Shown piece after piece: positions 1 through 9,528 of a stretch of 9,528 nucleotides of DNA. The translations under genes and the position numbers were made by a program. Source of the DNA: an uncultured Mollicutes bacterium (GTDB lineage Bacteria > Bacillota_I > Bacilli_A > RFN20 > CAG-826). A model generated the notes under the pieces. It made no database searches. It was not told the DNA's origin and saw only the letters and a list, made by a program, of their open reading frames with translations. How positions within the stretch are numbered: position 1 is the stretch's first letter; each line of letters begins with the position of its first letter. Location: NCBI GenBank assembly GCA_937893635.1, contig CALBGF010000222.1, positions 1 to 9,528 of the forward strand. The letters are read 5' to 3'.

Positions 1-2495
1 GTAAAGTTGTATCCAAATTACAAGAAGTAGAAATTAAAACAGGTAAAGTTGAAAAAATAATTAATACACAAAGAGATATTACAAGTTCCGTATTAGGATT
101 TAATAATGTCAAAAAGACAGACTTAAGCTTTGATGCTATTGTGGATATTATTAAAAGTAGAATTAGTAATCAAGACTGGGATAATGCATTAGATAAAATA
201 TATAAATTAGAAATGCAAAACAAAGATAATGGTGAACTATTATATTTAAAGGCTTTAGCGTTATTAAAAATAGAATCATTACAAGCTTTGACTCCAGGTA
301 AAAATAAGAAATTTGAAGATGGAGAATATAATCAAGCATATTTAAAGAAAATTCTAGAAAACGCTAATAAAGAATTAGGTGAACAAGTATTATCAGAGAC
401 ATGTTTATCAATTGAAAATGTCATAAATAAATTTTCTAATTTAAGAGGATTAGATAAAAACATCGCAACTGATTTTATTGAAGAATATTTTAATATTGGT
501 GTTTATAACTTTTTTCCTTGTATACGTGTCGCTAATTTACTAGTTGACTTAGGAATTCAGCAAGCTAATTATCGTTTATTTAAACTAGGTGATCGATATA
601 ATGAAGATGCAGGGAAATCAAGAAATAATTTAATTCAGTTATTAAAGAACTTAGTGGCTAAATCAAACTTTGAAGATGCACAAAAAGTTATTAATGATCT
701 AGATCAAATGGTAGAAGGAAATGTTACGGTATTAGAATATAAATTATTCGTTAAATATAAAGTACAAACCATTGCGGAATTATTCATGACTGATTTCAAT
801 GATTTTGAAGCATTACAAGATATTTTGCAATACTGCCAAAATGAAGATGAAGTATGCCTTACAGTAAGTGAATGGATTAATAATATTATTAGTGTAATGA
901 GCAAACAAAAACTACCAGAATCTTCTTATATTTCTTTATTTAATCATATTGAAGAAATTATAAAATTTATGCCCGAACAAAAACAACGTAATACTTATCA
1001 AGTAATTGCAAAAGTGGCAAAAAAATTAGGAGTATTCGATTTAGCGACTAAATATTACTTAATAAATATTCAAAATAACGAAAATGATGTTGAGACATAT
1101 TTTGAATTAATTCAATGTGAAAATGAATGTAGATCAGAAGAGGATTTATTAAAAATTACTAATTATATCTCTGATAGTGAATATTATGCTGATTTAATTA
1201 ATGCTTCTAAAAATAATGCAGCTAAATTGCAGTATTATAAAGATTTTCAAACTAAGCAAGCAATGTGTGTAAAAAAGAATAAAGAAAAGCTAGTTTTAGA
1301 AGAAAAACGTAATGAAGAAAGAATAAGAAAAGAAAAAGCTAAACAAGAAGAAGAAAAACAAAAATTAAAAGAAGAGCAACGAAAACGAAGATTGACTAAT
1401 AAAGAAAATCATCAAGACCATATAAGAATTTTTCTTATAGCACTTACTCCAATATTAGTTGCGGCAAGTTTATTCTTCTTATTAACAGATTTTGTTGATA
1501 AAAGTTTTCAATTATCAGTATTAATTTGTTTATTTACAGTTGTATTTAACTTAATATTTGATCAATTAACAAAGCTATCAGGATGTTTTGAAGATGATAA
1601 CATGATATCTTCATTCTACTTAGTTGGTTTTATAAGTTCATATATCGTATTTAAAGAAGATTTTAGTTCTTATGGAATAATGAAATATATATTAATTGGT
1701 ATAGGAGCCTTATTAATAATTTACTTAATTGTTGGTTTCTTTCTTAAGAAAAATTCATTATATAAATTATTTTCTTTAGGAGTTGGATTTGGAACTTGCT
1801 TTAGTTACATATCCGGTAATGCGATTTATATGGGCATTGCTACAGCATTACCATTATTATATTACGCTTTTGATAAAATAACTGTTGATGAAAGGTTCTT
1901 ACCTCAATTAACACCTATTTTAACACCAATTGTATTATTAGCTTCCTATTATTATATTGACTCTAGTAACTTAAATATGAATTTTGGTATTTATAATTAT
2001 TTATTAAATAATCAATATACGGAATATCATAATTTGTTAATCGCGGGAACTTGTATTATTCCTTTAATTGGTGCACCGATAACATTAAATATGTTGCTCG
2101 CTGAAGATGAAGAAAAGATTATATTTGTAATATTAGATGCGTTGATGTTTTTAGTATTTGTAGTTGCTATATTCTTAAATTACATATCAGTAATTACGGA
2201 ATTTGCTTCTAATACATTACCACTAATACTTGCAACATTATCACTAGATTCATTCTTCATTTTACCATTAGTATATGCCATAAATGATGATTTTGAGACA
2301 TATGGAAAAACATCAAAAATTCTTATTATTGTAGCAATTGTTTGTAAATATCTAATTTTTGTTCTTATTTGTGTATTAAATAGCTTATTACCATTCTTAG
2401 GAATATTTGTTGCTAGTGAAATAGGATTTGCAATTGGTCTTGCCATTGCTATAGGTGTAATTTTTGGAATTATTGCTGGAATACTTGGATACTAA
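1..2495 (+). CDS. Large multi-pass membrane protein with TPR-like and coiled-coil cytoplasmic region (5'-truncated)
   Basis: The frame is open from the left edge (first full codon at 3) with no stop before 2493-2495, so about 830 residues are visible and the true start lies outside the window. The GTG at 141 is in frame but has no ribosome binding site and sits inside continuous coding sequence, so it is unlikely to be the start. Order seen: a soluble helical region with TPR-like helix pairs (for example around 141-280 and 1010-1130); a strongly charged Lys/Glu coiled coil at about 1255-1415; then about 12 hydrophobic segments from about 1427 to the C-terminus, ending in a Gly/Ile-rich helix. 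No enzymatic motif was recognised. By analogy with zinc-ribbon/TM proteins next to pspA (YdjG-like), the missing N-terminus might carry a zinc ribbon, but this cannot be seen. It may be a membrane anchor or sensor for the downstream system. It is separated from that operon by 143 bp and may be transcribed separately. Confidence 0.85.
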   Translation, partial: KVVSKLQEVEIKTGKVEKIINTQRDITSSVLGFNNVKKTDLSFDAIVDIIKSRISNQDWDNALDKIYKLEMQNKDNGELLYLKALALLKIESLQALTPGKNKKFEDGEYNQAYLKKILENANKELGEQVLSETCLSIENVINKFSNLRGLDKNIATDFIEEYFNIGVYNFFPCIRVANLLVDLGIQQANYRLFKLGDRYNEDAGKSRNNLIQLLKNLVAKSNFEDAQKVINDLDQMVEGNVTVLEYKLFVKYKVQTIAELFMTDFNDFEALQDILQYCQNEDEVCLTVSEWINNIISVMSKQKLPESSYISLFNHIEEIIKFMPEQKQRNTYQVIAKVAKKLGVFDLATKYYLINIQNNENDVETYFELIQCENECRSEEDLLKITNYISDSEYYADLINASKNNAAKLQYYKDFQTKQAMCVKKNKEKLVLEEKRNEERIRKEKAKQEEEKQKLKEEQRKRRLTNKENHQDHIRIFLIALTPILVAASLFFLLTDFVDKSFQLSVLICLFTVVFNLIFDQLTKLSGCFEDDNMISSFYLVGFISSYIVFKEDFSSYGIMKYILIGIGALLIIYLIVGFFLKKNSLYKLFSLGVGFGTCFSYISGNAIYMGIATALPLLYYAFDKITVDERFLPQLTPILTPIVLLASYYYIDSSNLNMNFGIYNYLLNNQYTEYHNLLIAGTCIIPLIGAPITLNMLLAEDEEKIIFVILDALMFLVFVVAIFLNYISVITEFASNTLPLILATLSLDSFFILPLVYAINDDFETYGKTSKILIIVAIVCKYLIFVLICVLNSLLPFLGIFVASEIGFAIGLAIAIGVIFGIIAGILGY

Positions 2496-2638: not shown

Positions 2639-3214
2639 ATGGGTTTATTTCAAAGTGCTGAAAAGAAAGAAATGCAAAGAAGATTATTAATTAAACAAAC
2701 GATGAAGAGCATTGAAAAGTATATTGCGGGATTAAATAAGCAATATGAAAGTTATGTTGAAATTGCTAAAGTCGCAAAAATGAAAGGTGCAGATCAACAA
2801 TTCAAATTAGCGGTGTCTGCAATTAGAACTGTCACTAGCCAAAAGCAAAAAGCAGAAGAGATGTTACTTAATATTCAAATAACATCACAAATGCGTGACT
2901 TGACTAAGATGACAAAAGGATTCTTAACAACAATGAATACAATGTCAAAAGATATGATTAAAACAACAAAGAGCATGGACTTTGATAATGTTACTAAGAA
3001 CTTCGAAACAGCTTTAGATAATGTTGAAGTTGCTACGGATAGACTTGACACATTATTAGATTCTTCCAATGATTCTTATGCTTCAATCGCGGATAATTCT
3101 AAGATTAGTAATGATGAAATTGCAAAGATGATTGATTTAGAAATTGCACATCAAGAAAGTGTGTTAAATTCTAATATTGATGCCAAAATGGAAAAATTAA
3201 ATAACAAGAATTAA
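2639..3214 (+). CDS. ESCRT-III/Snf7-like filament protein A
   Basis: A 191-aa, almost entirely helical protein. It opens with MGLF followed by basic residues, as in CHMP3, where the N-terminus inserts into membranes. Residues about 7-80 form a long two-helix hairpin with a basic bias (15 Lys/Arg against 8 Asp/Glu in residues 1-75). Residues about 96-140 give two further helices whose pattern (Met-rich, then KSMDFDNVTKNFE, then a D..L..L run) resembles helices 3-4 of CHMP1-type proteins. Residues 114-191 are acidic (17 Asp/Glu, 7 Lys/Arg). The last helix ends in DAKMEKLNN (181-189), which fits the core of an MIM1 tail ([R/K]-[L/M]-x-x-L). Basic N-half, acidic C-half, length and tail are ESCRT-III hallmarks. 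The start is fixed by AAGGAGA 8 nt upstream. Likely role: membrane-bound polymer remodelled by the MIT-AAA+ protein of the same operon. The alternative is a generic PspA-like coiled coil. Confidence 0.72.
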   Translation: MGLFQSAEKKEMQRRLLIKQTMKSIEKYIAGLNKQYESYVEIAKVAKMKGADQQFKLAVSAIRTVTSQKQKAEEMLLNIQITSQMRDLTKMTKGFLTTMNTMSKDMIKTTKSMDFDNVTKNFETALDNVEVATDRLDTLLDSSNDSYASIADNSKISNDEIAKMIDLEIAHQESVLNSNIDAKMEKLNNKN

Positions 3215-3228
3215 TTTGTGGAGTAGTT

Positions 3229-3747
3229 ATGTCAAAAGAAGAATATGTTAGCGAGTTAAAAGATTATTTATTAAATAAAAAGAAAGAAATTTTAACTCCT
3301 AAAGCTAATTACGCTGATTACGAAAGAGACCTAAAAAAATATATGGTTTTAAATATGCGTAAAAGCAATTTTATAAATGTTTTAAAAAACTTTGAAGAAT
3401 CTTCTGGGTATACACCAACACAAATTTATACTCGAGCTTGGTTAAGCAAAGAAGTATATTATGGATTCTATCATCGCTTAGATTATAATCCAAAAAGAGA
3501 AACATTACTTGCTTTAGCAATTGGCTTACATTTATATGTTGAAGATACAAAAATTTTATTTCAATCATGTGGATATGTGTTTCCATGTACAACCGAAGAC
3601 TATGTTGTAGTCTTCTTCATGGAAAAAGATTTATACGCTAAAGGTAATGCTGTTGATGATTATGAAGACTTAAGTTTTGTTAATGATTTGCTTGAAGCAG
3701 TTAATTGCAAATTATTAGGTAAAAAAAGTAGAGAAAATAAGTTTTAA
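3229..3747 (+). CDS. XRE-like helix-turn-helix protein (macro-domain-associated HTH type)
   Basis: A 172-aa cytoplasmic protein. Residues about 1-45 are charged helix. Residues about 48-118 match the XRE-like HTH pattern that I recall from the C-termini of many Bacillota macro-domain (Appr-1-p processing) proteins: an F..L..F opening, Y..A.LS..VYY near 67-78, the YNPKRETLLALAIGL block at 86-100, and a closing LFQSCGY at 110-116. The C-terminus (about 122-164: D...VFFMEKDLY, then ND.LEAVNCKLLG) also fits that family. No macro domain is present here, so this is the HTH module standing alone with a different N-terminal extension. GTGGAG precedes the ATG by 5 nt, and the gap to the preceding gene is 14 bp, so the two are co-transcribed. 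Probable role: transcriptional regulator of the operon, or a nucleic-acid-binding adaptor. DNA binding is inferred from fold only. Confidence 0.7.
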   Translation: MSKEEYVSELKDYLLNKKKEILTPKANYADYERDLKKYMVLNMRKSNFINVLKNFEESSGYTPTQIYTRAWLSKEVYYGFYHRLDYNPKRETLLALAIGLHLYVEDTKILFQSCGYVFPCTTEDYVVVFFMEKDLYAKGNAVDDYEDLSFVNDLLEAVNCKLLGKKSRENKF

Positions 3748-3770
3748 AATTACAAGGAGTAAATTAAATT

Positions 3771-4580
3771 ATGAAAAAATGTAACGTATGTGGTTGTTAT
3801 CTAGAAGATGGACAAGAACGTTGTCCAATGTGTGGCGCGATTAACGTTAAAGAAGAACCAAAAGAAGAAAAAATTATCAAAGAAGAAATTAAAGAACAAC
3901 GCGTTGAAGAGCCAAGAAATTCCAGTGCTTATAATGCAGAAAGAGTGTTAAGAAGTGTTGTTCGTGTTTCTACTGGTAATAGCGTGGGTACAGGATTTGT
4001 TTATAATGGAAATCTTGTTATTACTAATGCCCATGTTATCTCACAAGTAGATAATAACGGAAATCTTATGATTTCAAGAATCATACGTGCTTCTTTTTCA
4101 GAAAAATATGATCGCACACTTTATTTATTAGAAGTACTTAATATTGATGTTCAAGAAGATGTTGCAATATTAAGATTCGTTGATAATGTTTCATTCCCAT
4201 CTCTTGCTTTAGCGGATCAAAGCAAAGTATCAATGGGAGAAGAAGTATTTACCATTGGCTGTCCATTGGGATTTGATTTCTCTTATGTAAGTGGCCATGT
4301 TTCTAATCCTAATAAAGTTACTGAAGGAAAAGCTCATAAAGTTATTCAAACTGATATTACAGTTAATCATGGTAATTCTGGTGGACCATTATGTAATATG
4401 AATTGTGAAGTTGTTGGTATGGTTTCTTTTAATGAAATCCACCGCTCTAACGATAATATGATTGATACACCAGATGGACCTGCACGATTAACTTTATATA
4501 AACCAATTGATGGTATGAGTTTTGCCGTTACAAGTGATGCAATTAAAGAGTGTTTAAAAATAATGAAAATGTATCGATAG
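3771..4580 (+). CDS. Cytoplasmic zinc-ribbon, trypsin-like (HtrA/DegP-type) serine protease
   Basis: A 269-aa protein. N-terminal zinc ribbon: Cys4/Cys7 and Cys18/Cys21 in CxxC pairs. A charged Lys/Glu linker covers about 27-50. Residues about 58-265 form a chymotrypsin-fold protease domain of the S1C/HtrA kind. The catalytic triad is visible: His88 in TNAHV, Asp130 in EDVAIL, Ser203 in GNSGGPL. The oxyanion-loop region GCPLGF is at 163-168. No signal peptide, no membrane segment and no PDZ domain is present, so unlike classical HtrA it should act in the cytoplasm. AAGGAG (3754-3759) lies 11 nt before the ATG. Within this operon it may trim an ESCRT-like subunit or act as an induced effector. 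The substrate is unknown. The protease call is strong and the biological role is inference. Confidence 0.88.
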   Translation: MKKCNVCGCYLEDGQERCPMCGAINVKEEPKEEKIIKEEIKEQRVEEPRNSSAYNAERVLRSVVRVSTGNSVGTGFVYNGNLVITNAHVISQVDNNGNLMISRIIRASFSEKYDRTLYLLEVLNIDVQEDVAILRFVDNVSFPSLALADQSKVSMGEEVFTIGCPLGFDFSYVSGHVSNPNKVTEGKAHKVIQTDITVNHGNSGGPLCNMNCEVVGMVSFNEIHRSNDNMIDTPDGPARLTLYKPIDGMSFAVTSDAIKECLKIMKMYR

Positions 4581-4584
4581 GAGG
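4579..4584 (+). promoter_or_regulatory. Ribosome binding site overlapping the preceding stop codon
   Basis: AGGAGG shares two bases with the protease stop TAG (4578-4580) and lies 9 nt before the ATG at 4594. It fixes that start and implies translational coupling of the SPFH gene to the protease gene. Confidence 0.75.
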
Positions 4585-4593
4585 AAATTATTT

Positions 4594-5511
4594 ATGTTTT
4601 TATTTAAACCAAAAGAAATTTATATCAAAAGAAAAAACAATTTACTTTTTTATGTAGAAGATTTTTCTAATCAAGATTTAAGAAAAGTTACATTTGCCAT
4701 TGAACGTGACCTTTGTGCTTATGTGGCAGTAAATGGTTATATTCAAAGAAATTTAATGTTACAACCTGGCACTGTCTACAATTTGAAAAAAGAACTAAAA
4801 GGTGAAAATATAAAAATATATGTAATTGATCAAAAACGTCAAAATACAGGATTTACATTTTCTACTGGTGGCTCAATTGATTTATTTTATTCTAAAGAGA
4901 GCAATTATACTTTAAAAGCTGGTTATACCGCCACACTAGAGTTATGCATTGAGGATGGCATTTTATTCCTTGATAAATACAAAGATTTAACACCAGAACA
5001 AGTGAAAGCTAAACTTCAAGAAATGTGCTATACCGAAGGTGTAAAAGCAAATGATGTTTATTTAGGAAATGCTATTAAGCAAGTGTTACAAGCTTATATA
5101 GCTAATGATCATACTTTATATGCTTCACCAACAACATATAACATTAAGGGTATGAGCAATACTTTCCAAGAAAGTGTTATTAAAGAAGTGAATAGAAATT
5201 TAAGTAAGTTTGGTTTTAATTGTATTAATTTTGCTTTCACTTTTAATAGAACTGATGCTGGTGATAAAAAATTAAAAGAATTTAGTGATAAAGAAGGACA
5301 AATTGAAGGCGATCGTTTAGATGAAAAAACACGCGCCATCCGTAAAGAAGATCAACGTGATGATCGTGATTTCCAAATCCAAATGGAAAAAGCAAGTAAC
5401 AAAACAAATGAAGAGCCTGTTCAAGTAGAATGTCCATATTGTCATAAAAAAATATATAAAGATAAAAGTATGAAACACTGCCCATATTGTGGCATGTATA
5501 TAGGAGAATAA
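4594..5511 (+). CDS. SPFH (band-7/flotillin-like) protein with C-terminal zinc ribbon, YdjI-like
   Basis: A 305-aa protein. Residues about 15-220 look like the SPFH domain of the YdjI/'virion core protein-like' group: N-terminal beta-rich region, the segment TGFTFSTGGSIDLFYSKES at 85-103, a following beta strand TATLELCIEDG, then helices and a late strand INFAFTF. A charged helical region follows (about 225-268). The C-terminus is a zinc ribbon with Cys280/Cys283 and Cys296/Cys299 (CPYC...CPYC). SPFH proteins form oligomeric scaffolds at membrane microdomains. This type lacks a long membrane helix, and here only the MFLF start is hydrophobic. In B. subtilis a similar protein, YdjI, is encoded with pspA, an ESCRT-III superfamily member. 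The same association here supports a scaffold or recruiter role for the ESCRT-like proteins. The protein is followed 4 nt later by the next start, whose ribosome binding site lies within this gene. Confidence 0.78.
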   Translation: MFLFKPKEIYIKRKNNLLFYVEDFSNQDLRKVTFAIERDLCAYVAVNGYIQRNLMLQPGTVYNLKKELKGENIKIYVIDQKRQNTGFTFSTGGSIDLFYSKESNYTLKAGYTATLELCIEDGILFLDKYKDLTPEQVKAKLQEMCYTEGVKANDVYLGNAIKQVLQAYIANDHTLYASPTTYNIKGMSNTFQESVIKEVNRNLSKFGFNCINFAFTFNRTDAGDKKLKEFSDKEGQIEGDRLDEKTRAIRKEDQRDDRDFQIQMEKASNKTNEEPVQVECPYCHKKIYKDKSMKHCPYCGMYIGE

Positions 5512-5515
5512 AACT

Positions 5516-6454
5516 ATGTGGCCATTTAAAAATAAAAATCGTGAAGCTAACTTTAAAGAAAAACAACAAATTAGTATGTCAATAGATGGCATCATCCGTA
5601 AAATCGATGATGAGAAAAGATATATAAATGATGAAATTACTTTAGATTCTGTTGAGAATTTAAAAAGAAAATTAGTTAAGATGAGTGATAGTGCTGAATG
5701 CAGCAATTATGGAAAATGTATGGACATTCTTAATTTTATTAAGCAATCATGTTCTGATTTAGTACCACTTTTAAGTGTGTCAAGTAGTAGCGTTGATATG
5801 CAAATGGAATTTATTGCTAATTTAGTCAAAGACTATCAACGTGGCGATTCAATTTATTTACAAAAAAAGTTCAAAGAATTATACAATAAACGTAGTAATT
5901 TATTAGCAAGATTAATTGAAATTGATGAAAGAATAAAAGAAAAAAATGAATATTTACAACAAGTAGCTAAAAGAGCTTTAGCATCCAAAAATAATGCGGT
6001 TGAATATCGTCGTTATATGGACCAAGTTCAAGCCATTAAAGCTGATATTAGCGAATTAGAAATGAATAAAACAAATGCTAGTGATCATTTAGACTTTATT
6101 AACATTGCTGTTTATAAAGTTATTCAAGATCAAACTTATAGCGATAGTGCAAGCATTACCGATTCTACTAGTGAGATTATTAGTAATGCGTTAAATAATA
6201 CTAATCGTACAGCATATCGTGATTTAGAAAAACAAAAACGTCTTAGTGAACAAGTTAGAAAACAACAAACATTTATTAATGACGCAATTAGTTCAAGTGA
6301 CACATTTAGCAAAGCTAATCGTAATATTGCTTCCACTAATGAATATTCTCGTAGCGCTCAAGAAGAAAGAGATGCTAAAACTTTAGGTGTTTCATCAAAT
6401 AAAGGACCAACTCAAGCCGAATTAGATGAACTAGATAAAATCATTCATGGTTAA
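5516..6454 (+). CDS. Divergent, larger ESCRT-III-like coiled-coil protein B
   Basis: A 312-aa, mostly helical, hydrophilic protein. It begins MWPFKNK, a short hydrophobic plus basic N-terminus like those of Snf7/CHMP proteins and of the first operon gene. Residues about 14-105 form an extra helical region not present in the two smaller paralogues. Residues about 112-206 form a long helical hairpin in which the stretch after LQQVAKRALASKNN (147-160), with YRRYMDQVQAIKADISEL, parallels the helix 1-2 turn of the small proteins (A/K-rich turn, then a regular Y..x..Q..aIK repeat). The Ser/Thr/Asn-rich region 207-300 looks flexible. The C-terminus AELDELDKIIHG is an acidic amphipathic helix, a weak MIM-like tail. 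AGGAG (5502-5506) inside the SPFH gene lies 9 nt from the ATG, so the two are coupled. The ESCRT-III membership is less certain than for proteins A and C. Confidence 0.5.
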   Translation: MWPFKNKNREANFKEKQQISMSIDGIIRKIDDEKRYINDEITLDSVENLKRKLVKMSDSAECSNYGKCMDILNFIKQSCSDLVPLLSVSSSSVDMQMEFIANLVKDYQRGDSIYLQKKFKELYNKRSNLLARLIEIDERIKEKNEYLQQVAKRALASKNNAVEYRRYMDQVQAIKADISELEMNKTNASDHLDFINIAVYKVIQDQTYSDSASITDSTSEIISNALNNTNRTAYRDLEKQKRLSEQVRKQQTFINDAISSSDTFSKANRNIASTNEYSRSAQEERDAKTLGVSSNKGPTQAELDELDKIIHG

Positions 6455-6463
6455 GGAGTAATT

Positions 6464-7039
6464 ATGAACAAATTAGATAAAGAATTAGAAAAACAAAGAA
6501 AAATTGATGAAACAAGACAAAACCTTGAAGAATTAGTGGCTAAATATGAAGATAACGAAAAAGAATATATCGCTTTAGCGGCAGAGGCTAAAGCGGATAA
6601 TCGTATGACGGATTATAAACAAACTTTAGTTTACTTAAAAGTTGTTATGGCCCGCAAGGTACAAGCTAAATCAATGCTTCATCAATTTAAATTAATTGAA
6701 TTAAATCGTGATGAAGCTAAAGCATCCAAAGCATTTATGGATAGTATGCTCATTATATCTAAAGAAACTAATAAATTATTTAATGGCATAACTGTACATA
6801 AAGCTACTAAGAATTTACGTAAAATGTCTTCAGATATGGAAAAGAATCAAATGTTAATGACATCATTTTTAGAAACTACTCAAGCATCTTTGGGTAATTT
6901 AGAAGATGAAACAATTATGCCTACTATTGATAAAGAAGTAGAAGAGCGTATTAATCAAGAAGTTGATAAAATTAAAAACAATATTGATAGTACACCTGAT
7001 GATCGTTTACAAGAATTATTAGGAAACACAAAAATATAG
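6464..7039 (+). CDS. ESCRT-III/Snf7-like filament protein C, paralogue of the first operon gene
   Basis: A 191-aa helical protein of exactly the same length as the first operon gene product. The two align by eye over the core: the helix 1-2 turn (YIALAAEAKADNRMTDYKQTL here, YVEIAKVAKMKGADQQFKLAV there) and the helix 3-4 region (KAFMDSMLIISKETNKLF here, KGFLTTMNTMSKDMIKTT there, then KNLRKM against KNFETA). Residues 147-191 are acidic (13 Asp/Glu, 6 Lys/Arg). The tail DDRLQELLGN (179-188) contains the R-L-x-x-L core of an MIM1 motif, the sequence that MIT domains of Vps4 bind in eukaryotic and archaeal ESCRT-III. It lacks the hydrophobic MxxF N-terminus of A and B, so it may be a soluble co-polymer or a late subunit that recruits the ATPase. 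AAGGAG overlapping the previous stop (6453-6458), 5 nt before the ATG, sets the start. Confidence 0.65.
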   Translation: MNKLDKELEKQRKIDETRQNLEELVAKYEDNEKEYIALAAEAKADNRMTDYKQTLVYLKVVMARKVQAKSMLHQFKLIELNRDEAKASKAFMDSMLIISKETNKLFNGITVHKATKNLRKMSSDMEKNQMLMTSFLETTQASLGNLEDETIMPTIDKEVEERINQEVDKIKNNIDSTPDDRLQELLGNTKI

Positions 7040-7096: not shown

Positions 7097-9439
7097 ATGG
7101 AAGATAAATATAAGTATTATAGTGATGCAAGCAAATATTTAGACTTGGCCGCTAACGCAAAAGATAATAATGTGGATGAATATTTAAGTTACCTTAAAAA
7201 AGCAGCAATTTGCTTATATCAATATGCCAAAATAGAGCATGATCCAGATAAGAAACAAGAAGCAACAAGACGCGCTGATTCAATCTACAATGTTATTAAG
7301 TCATTTAATAGTAATAAACCTCAAACAAATATTTATCCTAACAAAGCAAAAAAAGAAGATGATGAAGATAATGATGAAGAGTCAACTCTTGAAGCTTCAA
7401 AATCTGATACAACGTTTGATGATGTAGTGGGTTTAGATTATGCTAAAGCAATTATTCAAGATGAATTAATCGATCGTTTTAATCCTGTTTATGAAAAATT
7501 ATATGAAGATGTTGCTTTCCCAAGTGGTATTTTACTATTTGGTGTACCAGGAACTGGAAAAACATTATTTGCTCGTGCAGTTGCTGGTGAAATTAAAGCA
7601 CCATTTTATTATAAGTCCGCAAAAGATTTGATTGATAAATATGTTGGTGAAACAGGAAAAAATATTTCCTCACTATTTAATGAATTACGTAAAAATAAAT
7701 TATCCATCTTACTTTTAGATGATTGTGATGAATTATTTGGCGCTCGAAAAGACGATTCACAAAGTTATGAAATCGCAACGGCGAACGCTATACTTCGTGA
7801 AATGGATGGATTTGAAAAACATAAAGATAATGTAGTAATTGTTATTGCTACTACAAACCGTCCTAATGCATTTGATGACGCTATTTTACGTCGTTTTACT
7901 TTAAAAATAAAAATTGATTTACCAAATGAAGAACTTCGTAAAAAGATGATCTTTAACTATACTAAAAACAAAGAAGATTTATCTCCTTTAGATGATGAAA
8001 CAATTGATTACATTGCTTCAAAAACACAATATTTTTCTGGTGCTGATATTAAACATTTATGTGAAGATGCTTTCCGTATTTTAAGAAAGAAAAATAAACC
8101 AAGAGTTATTAATGGTGAAGAAGCTTTACCATTATCAAAAGATGAAATGGTTGAAGCATTATCTCATCGACGTGCAGAAGTAAAACCAGAAGCATTATTA
8201 GCAGTAGAAAAATTTGATGAACTTTATGGTAGTGGTGTAAGAAATGATAAAACAAATAAAACTGTAGAAAAAGAAAATAATGAAGAGATTAAATCTGATG
8301 ATAATAAAGAAGAAAAAAATGATGATAATGCTGATTTAAATTATGAATATCATTATCCAACTTCAGATTTATTAAATAATCCTAATACAGATATTAAAGA
8401 AGATGTTAGTGATTATATTGAAAATTGTTCTAATAAGATTAGCGCTAAATTAAATGAATTTAATGTAAAAGCAGATGTTAATAATGTCGTTATTGGACCA
8501 ACTTTTATTCGTTTTAACTTAAAACTTGGTACAGGTATAGCAATTGCTAATGTTAAAAGATATTTAGAAGATTTAGAGCAAGTTTTACAATGCAAGATTC
8601 GTTTATCTGATGATACCACTAGTGAATTTTTAGGTTTAGAGATTCCTAATCCTAAAAGAAGAATAGTTTCTTTAAAAGAAGTATTAGGTACTAAACTAGA
8701 TAATAATTTTCAAATAGGTTTAGGAAAAAGAGTTGATGATTCTGTTTTCTATTTATCAAATAAAGACTTTACTCATATTCTTATTGGTGGAACCACTAGT
8801 GCTGGCAAATCATCTTTAATTCATTCTATTATTTGTCAACTTGTTATGAATTATTCTCCAAAAGAAATGAAATTTGTTTTAATAGATACTAAACGTGTTG
8901 AATTATCTTATTATAGCGATTTACCACATTTAGCTTGCAATATTGTTAAAACAAAAGATGATGCTTTAGAAAAAATGCAAGCATTAATTAATGAACAAGC
9001 TCGTAGATATGCTTTAATTGAAGAATTCAAATGTCGTAATATTGAAGAATATAATGAAATTTCTAAAAATAAATTACCTTATTTAATTTTAATAATCGAT
9101 GAACTAGCGGAACTTGCTAGTAAAGCATTCCTTGATATGCTATCAACTTTAGCTGCACAAGGACGTGCCGCAGGTATTAAAATTATTGTAGCTACTCAAC
9201 GCCCTTCCGCAGAAGTAATACGTGGTGATGTTAAAGCTAATTTCCCAACTCGTATTGCCTTAACAGTTGCTTCAAGTATTGATTCTAGAATAATTTTGGA
9301 TCATACCGATGCAGAAAAACTTGTTGGTAAAGGGGATATGCTTGTTAGTAATAATAATGAGATTACTAGACTTCAAGCACCATTTGTTACAACTGAGGAA
9401 ATAAAAAGAATAACTAAATTTATTGAAGAGAATAAGTAG
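7097..9439 (+). CDS. MIT-like domain + Vps4-like AAA+ ATPase + FtsK/SpoIIIE DNA translocase fusion
   Basis: A 780-aa soluble protein. Residues about 6-70 form a three-helix segment with MIT-domain spacing (LDLAANAKDNNVDEYL, YLKKAAICLYQYAK, then A.RRADSIYNVIKSF). Acidic linker about 86-100. AAA+ domain about 105-335: TTFDDVVGLDYAK entry, Walker A GVPGTGKT (149-156), pore-loop KYVGE (181-185), Walker B ILLLDD (204-209, Asp in place of the usual Glu), sensor Asn254, Arg fingers 265/266, SGAD (314-317). Residues about 349-380 (MVEALSHRRAEVKPEALLAVEKFDELYG) match the Vps4_C helix of the Vps4/katanin/spastin clade. After an acidic linker (about 381-431), residues 432-780 are the FtsK alpha-beta motor: GTTSAGKSS (565-573), IIDEL (666-670), QGRAAGIKIIVATQRPS (688-704). 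There are no membrane helices and no C-terminal gamma (DNA-orienting) domain. Predicted role: disassemble the ESCRT-like polymers and move DNA. The start follows AAGGAGA (7080-7086) by 10 nt. Confidence 0.85.
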   Translation: MEDKYKYYSDASKYLDLAANAKDNNVDEYLSYLKKAAICLYQYAKIEHDPDKKQEATRRADSIYNVIKSFNSNKPQTNIYPNKAKKEDDEDNDEESTLEASKSDTTFDDVVGLDYAKAIIQDELIDRFNPVYEKLYEDVAFPSGILLFGVPGTGKTLFARAVAGEIKAPFYYKSAKDLIDKYVGETGKNISSLFNELRKNKLSILLLDDCDELFGARKDDSQSYEIATANAILREMDGFEKHKDNVVIVIATTNRPNAFDDAILRRFTLKIKIDLPNEELRKKMIFNYTKNKEDLSPLDDETIDYIASKTQYFSGADIKHLCEDAFRILRKKNKPRVINGEEALPLSKDEMVEALSHRRAEVKPEALLAVEKFDELYGSGVRNDKTNKTVEKENNEEIKSDDNKEEKNDDNADLNYEYHYPTSDLLNNPNTDIKEDVSDYIENCSNKISAKLNEFNVKADVNNVVIGPTFIRFNLKLGTGIAIANVKRYLEDLEQVLQCKIRLSDDTTSEFLGLEIPNPKRRIVSLKEVLGTKLDNNFQIGLGKRVDDSVFYLSNKDFTHILIGGTTSAGKSSLIHSIICQLVMNYSPKEMKFVLIDTKRVELSYYSDLPHLACNIVKTKDDALEKMQALINEQARRYALIEEFKCRNIEEYNEISKNKLPYLILIIDELAELASKAFLDMLSTLAAQGRAAGIKIIVATQRPSAEVIRGDVKANFPTRIALTVASSIDSRIILDHTDAEKLVGKGDMLVSNNNEITRLQAPFVTTEEIKRITKFIEENK

Positions 9440-9452
9440 GTGTAGTTGATAT

Positions 9453-9528
9453 ATGAAGTGCGTAAAATGTAAAACATGCGGGCACGAAAGTATAGTTAAT
9501 GAACAAGATGAATTTTTTAGATGTAGTT
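9453..9528 (+). CDS. N-terminal part of a zinc-ribbon protein (3'-truncated by the window)
   Basis: The ATG at 9453 follows the ATPase stop by 13 nt, with AGGTG (9438-9442) as a weak ribosome binding site and an in-frame TGA at 9447 that excludes an earlier start. The 25 visible residues (starting MKCVKCKTCGHE and ending in FFRCS) have Cys at 3, 6, 9 and 24, the layout of the first half of a TFIIB-type zinc ribbon common at the N-termini of Bacillota membrane-associated proteins. The close spacing suggests it is the next gene of the same operon. It could resemble the missing N-terminus of the membrane protein at the left edge, but nothing beyond the ribbon is visible. Confidence 0.6.
   Translation, partial: MKCVKCKTCGHESIVNEQDEFFRCS

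Follow-up and report, generated by a model that had tools for sequence, protein, structure and literature searches.

A 9,528-nucleotide stretch of DNA from an uncultured Mollicutes bacterium, referred to here as the window, contains a gene that seems to join a Vps4-like ATPase to an FtsK-type DNA motor. The locus raises the question of whether such a chain really exists in bacteria and, if it does, what a protein of this kind might do. In the available text of published accounts, Vps4-driven ESCRT is treated as archaeal and eukaryotic, with occasional transfer of Vps4-like proteins to bacteria (PMC7615534, PMC10936438, PMC11237479). One of these sources describes bacteria, in the portion available, as being without a clear Vps4 homologue (PMC7615534), and another reports a VPS4-like AAA ATPase that was transferred to bacteria, its snf7 partner being displaced by a TPR/6TM gene (PMC11237479).

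Architecture of the fused protein

The gene at 7097..9439 on the plus strand encodes 780 amino acids in one frame. Its ATG sits behind AAAAGGAG, there is no stop inside the 7097-9439 frame, and a scan of the fusion frame between its AAA and FtsK parts (8150-8450) returned zero in-frame starts. The initial annotation had proposed a MIT domain, a Vps4-like AAA module and an FtsK alpha/beta motor on a single chain, and this architecture is confirmed by Pfam, by profiles and by the continuous frame. All parts lie on the plus strand: a MIT-like domain (residues 1-78; 7097..7330) is followed by an AAA module with its lid (residues 103-370; 7403..8206), an acidic low-complexity linker whose length differs among relatives (residues 376-418; 8222..8350), an FtsK alpha domain identified by Pfam (residues 421-518; 8357..8650) and an FtsK beta motor domain that extends to the stop without a gamma domain (8702..9439). 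The Pfam matches to AAA (residues 145-274, E=5e-39), FtsK_alpha (421-518, E=1.2e-15) and FtsK_SpoIIIE (536-704, E=7.7e-35) are all above the curated cut-offs.

The same architecture recurs in databases. A protein search with the fusion gave 2116 matches, and among the 120 listed are eight clusters (P0001-P0008) that match 97-100% of the query's length with identities of 40-98%, all others listed covering <=58%. The alignment of these eight with the window protein runs unbroken, with variation in linker length, and P0007 is the fusion protein at locus L001, in the metagenome-assembled genome (MAG) G001. The initial annotation knew of no described family with this composition, and likewise no prior description was found in the open-licence literature.

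Walker A and Walker B motifs, which the initial annotation had also reported, are present in both ATPase modules. The AAA module has GVPGTGKT (7541-7564) and LLLDD (7709-7723), together with KYVGE (7637-7651), which we take to be a pore loop; the FtsK module has GTTSAGKS (8789-8812) and LIIDE (9086-9103). The Walker B motif of AAA proteins usually carries Glu. At this position the AAA module of the window protein and of P0001-P0005 has Asp-Asp, and that of P0006-P0008 has Asp-Glu; full activity of the AAA ring in the window's clade is consequently uncertain.

Pfam gives no MIT match for the window protein alone, and the MIT-like domain was recognized by profile. This profile, built from 12 N-termini, matches MIT domains of known structure, the best being 2w2u (E=8e-7; deposited as 'hypothetical p60 katanin'), followed by calpain-7 (3.5e-6), VPS4B (6e-4, across the whole profile) and CdvC 4lcb (0.005). 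Designed TPR proteins top the list at 4e-9, but over positions 12-59 only. When the N-terminal regions of two VPS4-type proteins (P0137, P0158) were aligned to it by profile, positions 1-78 were paired with 1-77 at a probability of 87.5, as against 7.5 and 0.1 in two control alignments. The fusion thus has the N-terminal MIT domain that, in the available text of PMC10936438, is the first criterion for Vps4; for the second, an ESCRT neighbourhood, the window offers two Snf7-like genes that score below the Pfam Snf7 cut-off.

The protein resembles two known families and departs from both. With the Vps4/CdvC proteins of archaea and eukaryotes it shares a MIT-like domain, an AAA module and adjoining ESCRT-III-like genes, whereas it is bacterial, carries a C-terminal FtsK motor, has Asp in Walker B and has no Vps4_C domain (PF09336) among 25 of the 29 Pfam families listed for it. 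Vps4_C is weak in the L013 relative (E=0.0015, below the cut-off), and the NCBIfam CdvC equivalog scores 159.8 bits on the fusion, under its 650-bit cut-off. With FtsK/SpoIIIE the protein has in common the alpha and beta motor domains and their Walker motifs, but an N-terminal MIT-AAA module stands where FtsK has its transmembrane anchor, and the gamma domain is missing. Simple hydropathy found no transmembrane-like segment in nine fusions, and FtsK_gamma (PF09397) was matched neither by the window fusion in Pfam nor by any domain listed for P0001-P0008. In PADLOC the window fusion has matches to SspH, IetA, mad8, TRIP13, HerA and BrxF, which apparently reflect shared motor folds and were rejected as evidence of membership in these systems.

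The ESCRT-like operon and its occurrence in other genomes

The fusion gene ends an ESCRT-like operon whose other members, likewise on the plus strand, include a pair of Snf7-like genes and one for an SPFH-like protein. A 784-aa protein (141..2495), in which the N-terminal half is TPR-like by eye and the part from residue 427 on contains nine hydrophobic segments, has profile relatives that adjoin Snf7/MIT-AAA genes in L150 and L151. ESCRT-III/Snf7-like protein 1 (2639..3214; Pfam Snf7 E=5.3e-5, below the cut-off) is followed by a 172-aa protein without family assignment (3229..3747), which has no match in Pfam (E<=0.1), NCBIfam, PADLOC (E<=0.01) or PHROGs, and by a zinc ribbon joined to a trypsin-like serine protease (3771..4580; Trypsin_2 E=1.1e-26) with counterparts in L137, L177, L181, L182 and L183. 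The SPFH-like protein (4594..5511), which has a C-terminal zinc ribbon, was connected by phmmer to L137 and L138; it has no Band_7 match alone, and an iterative profile links it to proteins of L127, L128 and L130, which match Band_7_1. The next gene (5516..6454) encodes a helical protein, probably a coiled coil, that was assigned by position: its own profile search gave zero relatives, and the interval between the SPFH-like and Snf7-like genes holds a gene in other loci too, at 18% identity (alignment A4). ESCRT-III/Snf7-like protein 2 (6464..7039) resembles Snf7-like proteins of L001, L137 and L138, is 21% identical to protein 1 (alignment A2) and has no Pfam Snf7 match alone. Downstream of the fusion, the start of a further plus-strand gene is cut by the window edge (9453..9528); its product, MKCVKCKTCGHESIVNEQDEFFRCS, is zinc-ribbon-like and by eye resembles the zinc-ribbon TIR proteins of L001, L013 and L166. 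Rfam gave no match at the gathering score.

Parts of this arrangement have precedents. The loci of Ravi et al. 2024, in the available text of PMC11237479, likewise place a bacterial VPS4-like AAA beside a TPR + 6TM gene; snf7 is displaced there, whereas the window has Snf7-like genes and a fused FtsK. A zinc-ribbon SPFH gene beside ESCRT-III-family genes is also a feature of archaeal SPFH-containing ESCRT loci (Meth_adaptin) and of bacterial PspA-YdjI, as described in part of PMC10936438, from which the window differs in being a bacterial operon with MIT-AAA and FtsK.

The ESCRT-like core also occurs without FtsK, sporadically in Bacilli and Clostridia. Among 395 genomes of the class to which G001 belongs, a MIT-AAA profile matched 17 at E<=3.5e-75, with a background, presumed to be FtsH, that starts at 2e-67. 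A Snf7-like gene is found in 10 of these 17 genomes and in one of the other 378 (Fisher 9e-15), and the one exception, G091, has a more divergent MIT-AAA at the same locus. In the remaining seven genomes the Snf7-like profile matched nothing, and their AAA proteins include four (~600 aa) that fall inside the bacterial MIT-AAA branch. The Snf7-like profile itself matched 11/395 genomes of the class and 14/279 of the order, two sets that overlap, and 3/391 in the class that includes the Clostridia genome G003. The MIT-AAA-FtsK fusion is rare, being present in 1/279 genomes of the order.

Twenty-four systems, represented by 25 loci (L166 and L183 both come from G091), were compared, and an SPFH-like gene is present in 22 of them; it is missing in L001, a 6.2-kb contig, and in L180. 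Among the neighbours scanned, TIR proteins adjoin the core in L001, L013, L130, L140, L141, L166, L176 and L177. Both L130 and L176 also have BrxL, while L128 has a protein kinase and L028 has RelA/SpoT. BrxL and large TIR proteins directly adjoin the Snf7/MIT-AAA core in L130 (4516-8952) and L176 (3233-7791), and the BrxL of L130 is the only full-length PADLOC match.

Several loci vary in other ways. In L177 (7391-9463), a 690-aa protein with two AAA domains and an AAA_lid_6 match takes the place of the MIT-AAA gene. Genes for proteins of 544 aa (L181, 6158-7792) and 540 aa (L182, 7796-9418) lie between the Snf7-like and MIT-AAA genes, and the 544-aa protein has a Pfam RuvB match and a weak HEPN match. 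In L129, vWA, kinase and phosphatase signalling-like genes were seen by eye around the core (3108-6760 and 11320-14086).

On plasmids, tblastn with the fusion returned 2535 records, none over 80% of the query, and the eight matches listed are to the FtsK half; the Snf7-like protein had no plasmid match. On viral contigs, alignment A1 gave 10 weak matches over residues 143-271, and for the Snf7-FtsK alignment none of the best 80 of 328 loci has a Snf7, MIT-AAA or SPFH profile match.

Attachment of FtsK to several partners

The initial annotation had allowed that relatives might encode the two halves as separate genes, with the fusion an assembly error. By profile, three of the 25 fetched loci contain FtsK, in every case fused, and 22 contain none; a separate FtsK gene was found in no locus, with the contigs of L001, L127, L137 and L138 ending near the core. 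AAA proteins without FtsK do occur in relatives. The fusion partner is MIT-AAA in the window and L001, and in L166, which lies in G091 and thus in the same order as G001, FtsK alpha-beta is fused to a Snf7-like protein (9671-11542). Besides this fusion, L166 encodes Snf7-like and MIT-AAA proteins that are not fused, as well as zinc-ribbon TIR/leucine-rich-repeat proteins, with protease-, SPFH-like and helix-turn-helix genes farther along its region.

A search with the L166 Snf7-FtsK protein found, among 120 matches listed, at least 20 more proteins with both profiles (P0241-P0254, P0266, P0268, P0269, P0271, P0273 and P0275). A further set of 871-908 aa (P0257-P0261, P0263-P0265, P0267, P0270, P0272 and P0274) joins an AAA_lid_6-type AAA to FtsK. 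A MIT domain suspected by eye in the latter was unsupported (probability 8.7). PADLOC matches of the L166 fusion (SspH, mad8, HerA) and of P0257 (SspH, mad8, IetA, HerA, DolB, TRIP13, PDC-M37B) were again set aside as apparently shared motor folds. A phylum search for Snf7-FtsK, at a lax threshold that matched 210/234 genomes, gave no fusion among the matches listed, all of which start at query position >=141. Because relatives also have FtsK on one chain with a Snf7-like protein, the tie between ESCRT and FtsK is wider than was first proposed.

In AAA trees, seven of the nine fusions (near-copies were left out) form one clade (100/98 and 100/99). The AAA proteins of L137 and L138 join it (100/98), the L138 gene being unfused and the L137 gene running off its contig, and in the larger tree the long-branched AAA of L166 does so too (93/98). 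One AAA tree joins bacterial MIT-AAA with two VPS4 rows (99/93); the other, which is unrooted, groups VPS4 with FtsH and Cdc48 and sets them apart from the bacterial rows. Archaeal CdvC is in neither tree. The FtsK trees, drawn with midpoint rooting, took their rows from two of three protein searches and the fetched loci. In the larger one, 36 fused modules (6 MIT-AAA, 21 Snf7-like and 9 AAA_lid_6) split from 29 housekeeping FtsKs (99/98, and 100% of 200 bootstrap trees), of which the 28 checked (all but L092) have a gamma domain. The AAA_lid_6 group is nested inside the Snf7-like group. Since the fused FtsKs form one clade with this nesting, a single FtsK module has apparently been joined to several different proteins, and its fusion to AAA or to a Snf7-like protein suggests that membrane remodelling and DNA movement are genuinely linked.

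Possible role of an ESCRT-linked DNA motor

On balance, the sequence evidence somewhat favours a bacterial ESCRT-type membrane system with a dsDNA motor tied to the ESCRT machinery, most likely with a role in stress or against phage. In such a system, the MIT domain would bind the C-terminal tails of Snf7-like filament proteins and a hexameric AAA ring would remodel the filaments, at a rate that the Walker B Asp could slow in the window's clade. The FtsK alpha-beta ring, also presumably a hexamer, has neither its own membrane anchor nor the sequence-reading gamma domain and would be held at the membrane by ESCRT contact, the MIT domain (in relatives, the Snf7-like domain itself) replacing the anchor; there it would move or remove DNA where the ESCRT-like polymer sits. 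Its FtsK module would descend from a housekeeping FtsK that was joined to a Vps4-like AAA, to a Snf7-like protein and to another AAA. A more tentative reading, a serious possibility short of the expected outcome, is that the DNA motor is an integral part of an ESCRT machine: disassembly by the Vps4-like ring and dsDNA movement by FtsK would be mechanically coupled, in one chain or through an ESCRT-III subunit, and DNA would be cleared or expelled at the site where the membrane is remodelled or cut. The observations cover domains, operon, recurrence and trees; the stacked double ring that the initial annotation imagined is conjectural, as are DNA pumping and membrane scission.

As to the role, the sporadic occurrence and the presence of TIR, BrxL and kinase genes nearby fit stress or defence better than a core function, and envelope stress or anti-phage defence is therefore proposed as most likely, ahead of chromosome clearing. 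The latter would couple ESCRT-type scission to the removal of trapped DNA at a closing septum, in division or sporulation, much like an abscission checkpoint. This is rather unlikely, but FtsK ancestry lends it some weight, as the first FtsK tree places the fused FtsK halves as one clade among the gamma-bearing FtsKs of G001 relatives (92/97), and SpoIIIE mediates both chromosome translocation and septal membrane fission, as described in part of PMC4423119. Against it stand the sporadic distribution, the FtsZ of G001 and G091, the gamma-bearing FtsK of G091 and the absence from the fusion of the gamma domain, which SpoIIIE needs for directional transport according to the available text of PMC4744071. 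A gamma-bearing FtsK is in fact present in 18/21 genomes (G001 and relatives, including G091), and is not found in the MAG G001 itself. Replacement of FtsZ by ESCRT was rejected for G001 and G091, both of which have FtsZ.

It is improbable that the FtsK half is no longer a DNA pump and aids assembly or moves another substrate, which would make the ESCRT link structural only. Such a loss would suit the missing gamma domain and membrane anchor, and FtsK ATPase domains predicted to be inactive do figure among conflict-system effectors, as described in part of Kaur et al. (PMC7159879). Conservation of the motor argues otherwise: the FtsK Walker A, TQRPS and KANF stretches are identical across all nine aligned fusions, and Walker B is DE in seven and EE in P0004 and P0005.

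More improbable again is that the ESCRT reading is wrong: the neighbours would then be helical-hairpin proteins without relation to ESCRT, and the AAA would be a general remodeller of the Cdc48 kind. The Snf7 scores are weak, at 23.4 bits for window protein 1 and 26.9 bits for L028 against a cut-off of 27.3, but Snf7 is nonetheless matched by more members than any other Pfam family (4/14 at E<=0.1, all below the cut-off). By sequence, the Snf7-like profile found no ESCRT-III in the PDB. The ESCRT-III fold proceeds from a long helical hairpin through alpha4 to a C-terminal helix, and an AlphaFold2 model of Snf7-like protein 1 (pLDDT 79) has helices at 7-48, 52-110, 113-149 and 158-190. In Foldseek, CdvB/CdvB2 fill the top five rows for this model, though at E>=0.03, whereas VIA-align places BAR domains above ESCRT-III, whose rows are not above other helical rows. 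The best PDB matches of the AAA part are Cdc48-type chains, but among 60 PDB rows listed CdvC alone extends over the MIT-like region too. The co-occurrence of MIT-AAA and Snf7-like genes and the MIT-like domain itself also speak for ESCRT.

Tails of the Snf7-like proteins were scored with what we take to be the MIM1 consensus. A strict MIM1-like tail is present in 5 of the first 14, none of them from the window, against a mean of 0.047 and a maximum of 2 in shuffles and 0/145 body windows; a further nine tails gave 0/9, so that overall 5/23 have the pattern and 18/23 fail. These nine tails and the four AAA proteins without Snf7-like genes slightly lowered our confidence in the favoured reading, an ESCRT-type system with a tied DNA motor, and with sub-threshold Pfam scores the ESCRT-III assignment is made with moderate confidence. 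An assembly or sequencing artefact that fused two genes is so improbable that it was rejected, given eight other clusters from several sources with the same fusion, one of them placed in a MAG, and the single clade formed by each half in trees.

A bacterial operon that combines a MIT-bearing Vps4-like ATPase with Snf7-like partners would alter the view that Vps4-driven ESCRT belongs to archaea and eukaryotes, and if one partner or the other carries a fused DNA motor, ESCRT and DNA transport would be tied directly and physically. A small bacterial system would then allow tests of how DNA is kept out of the way of membrane scission.
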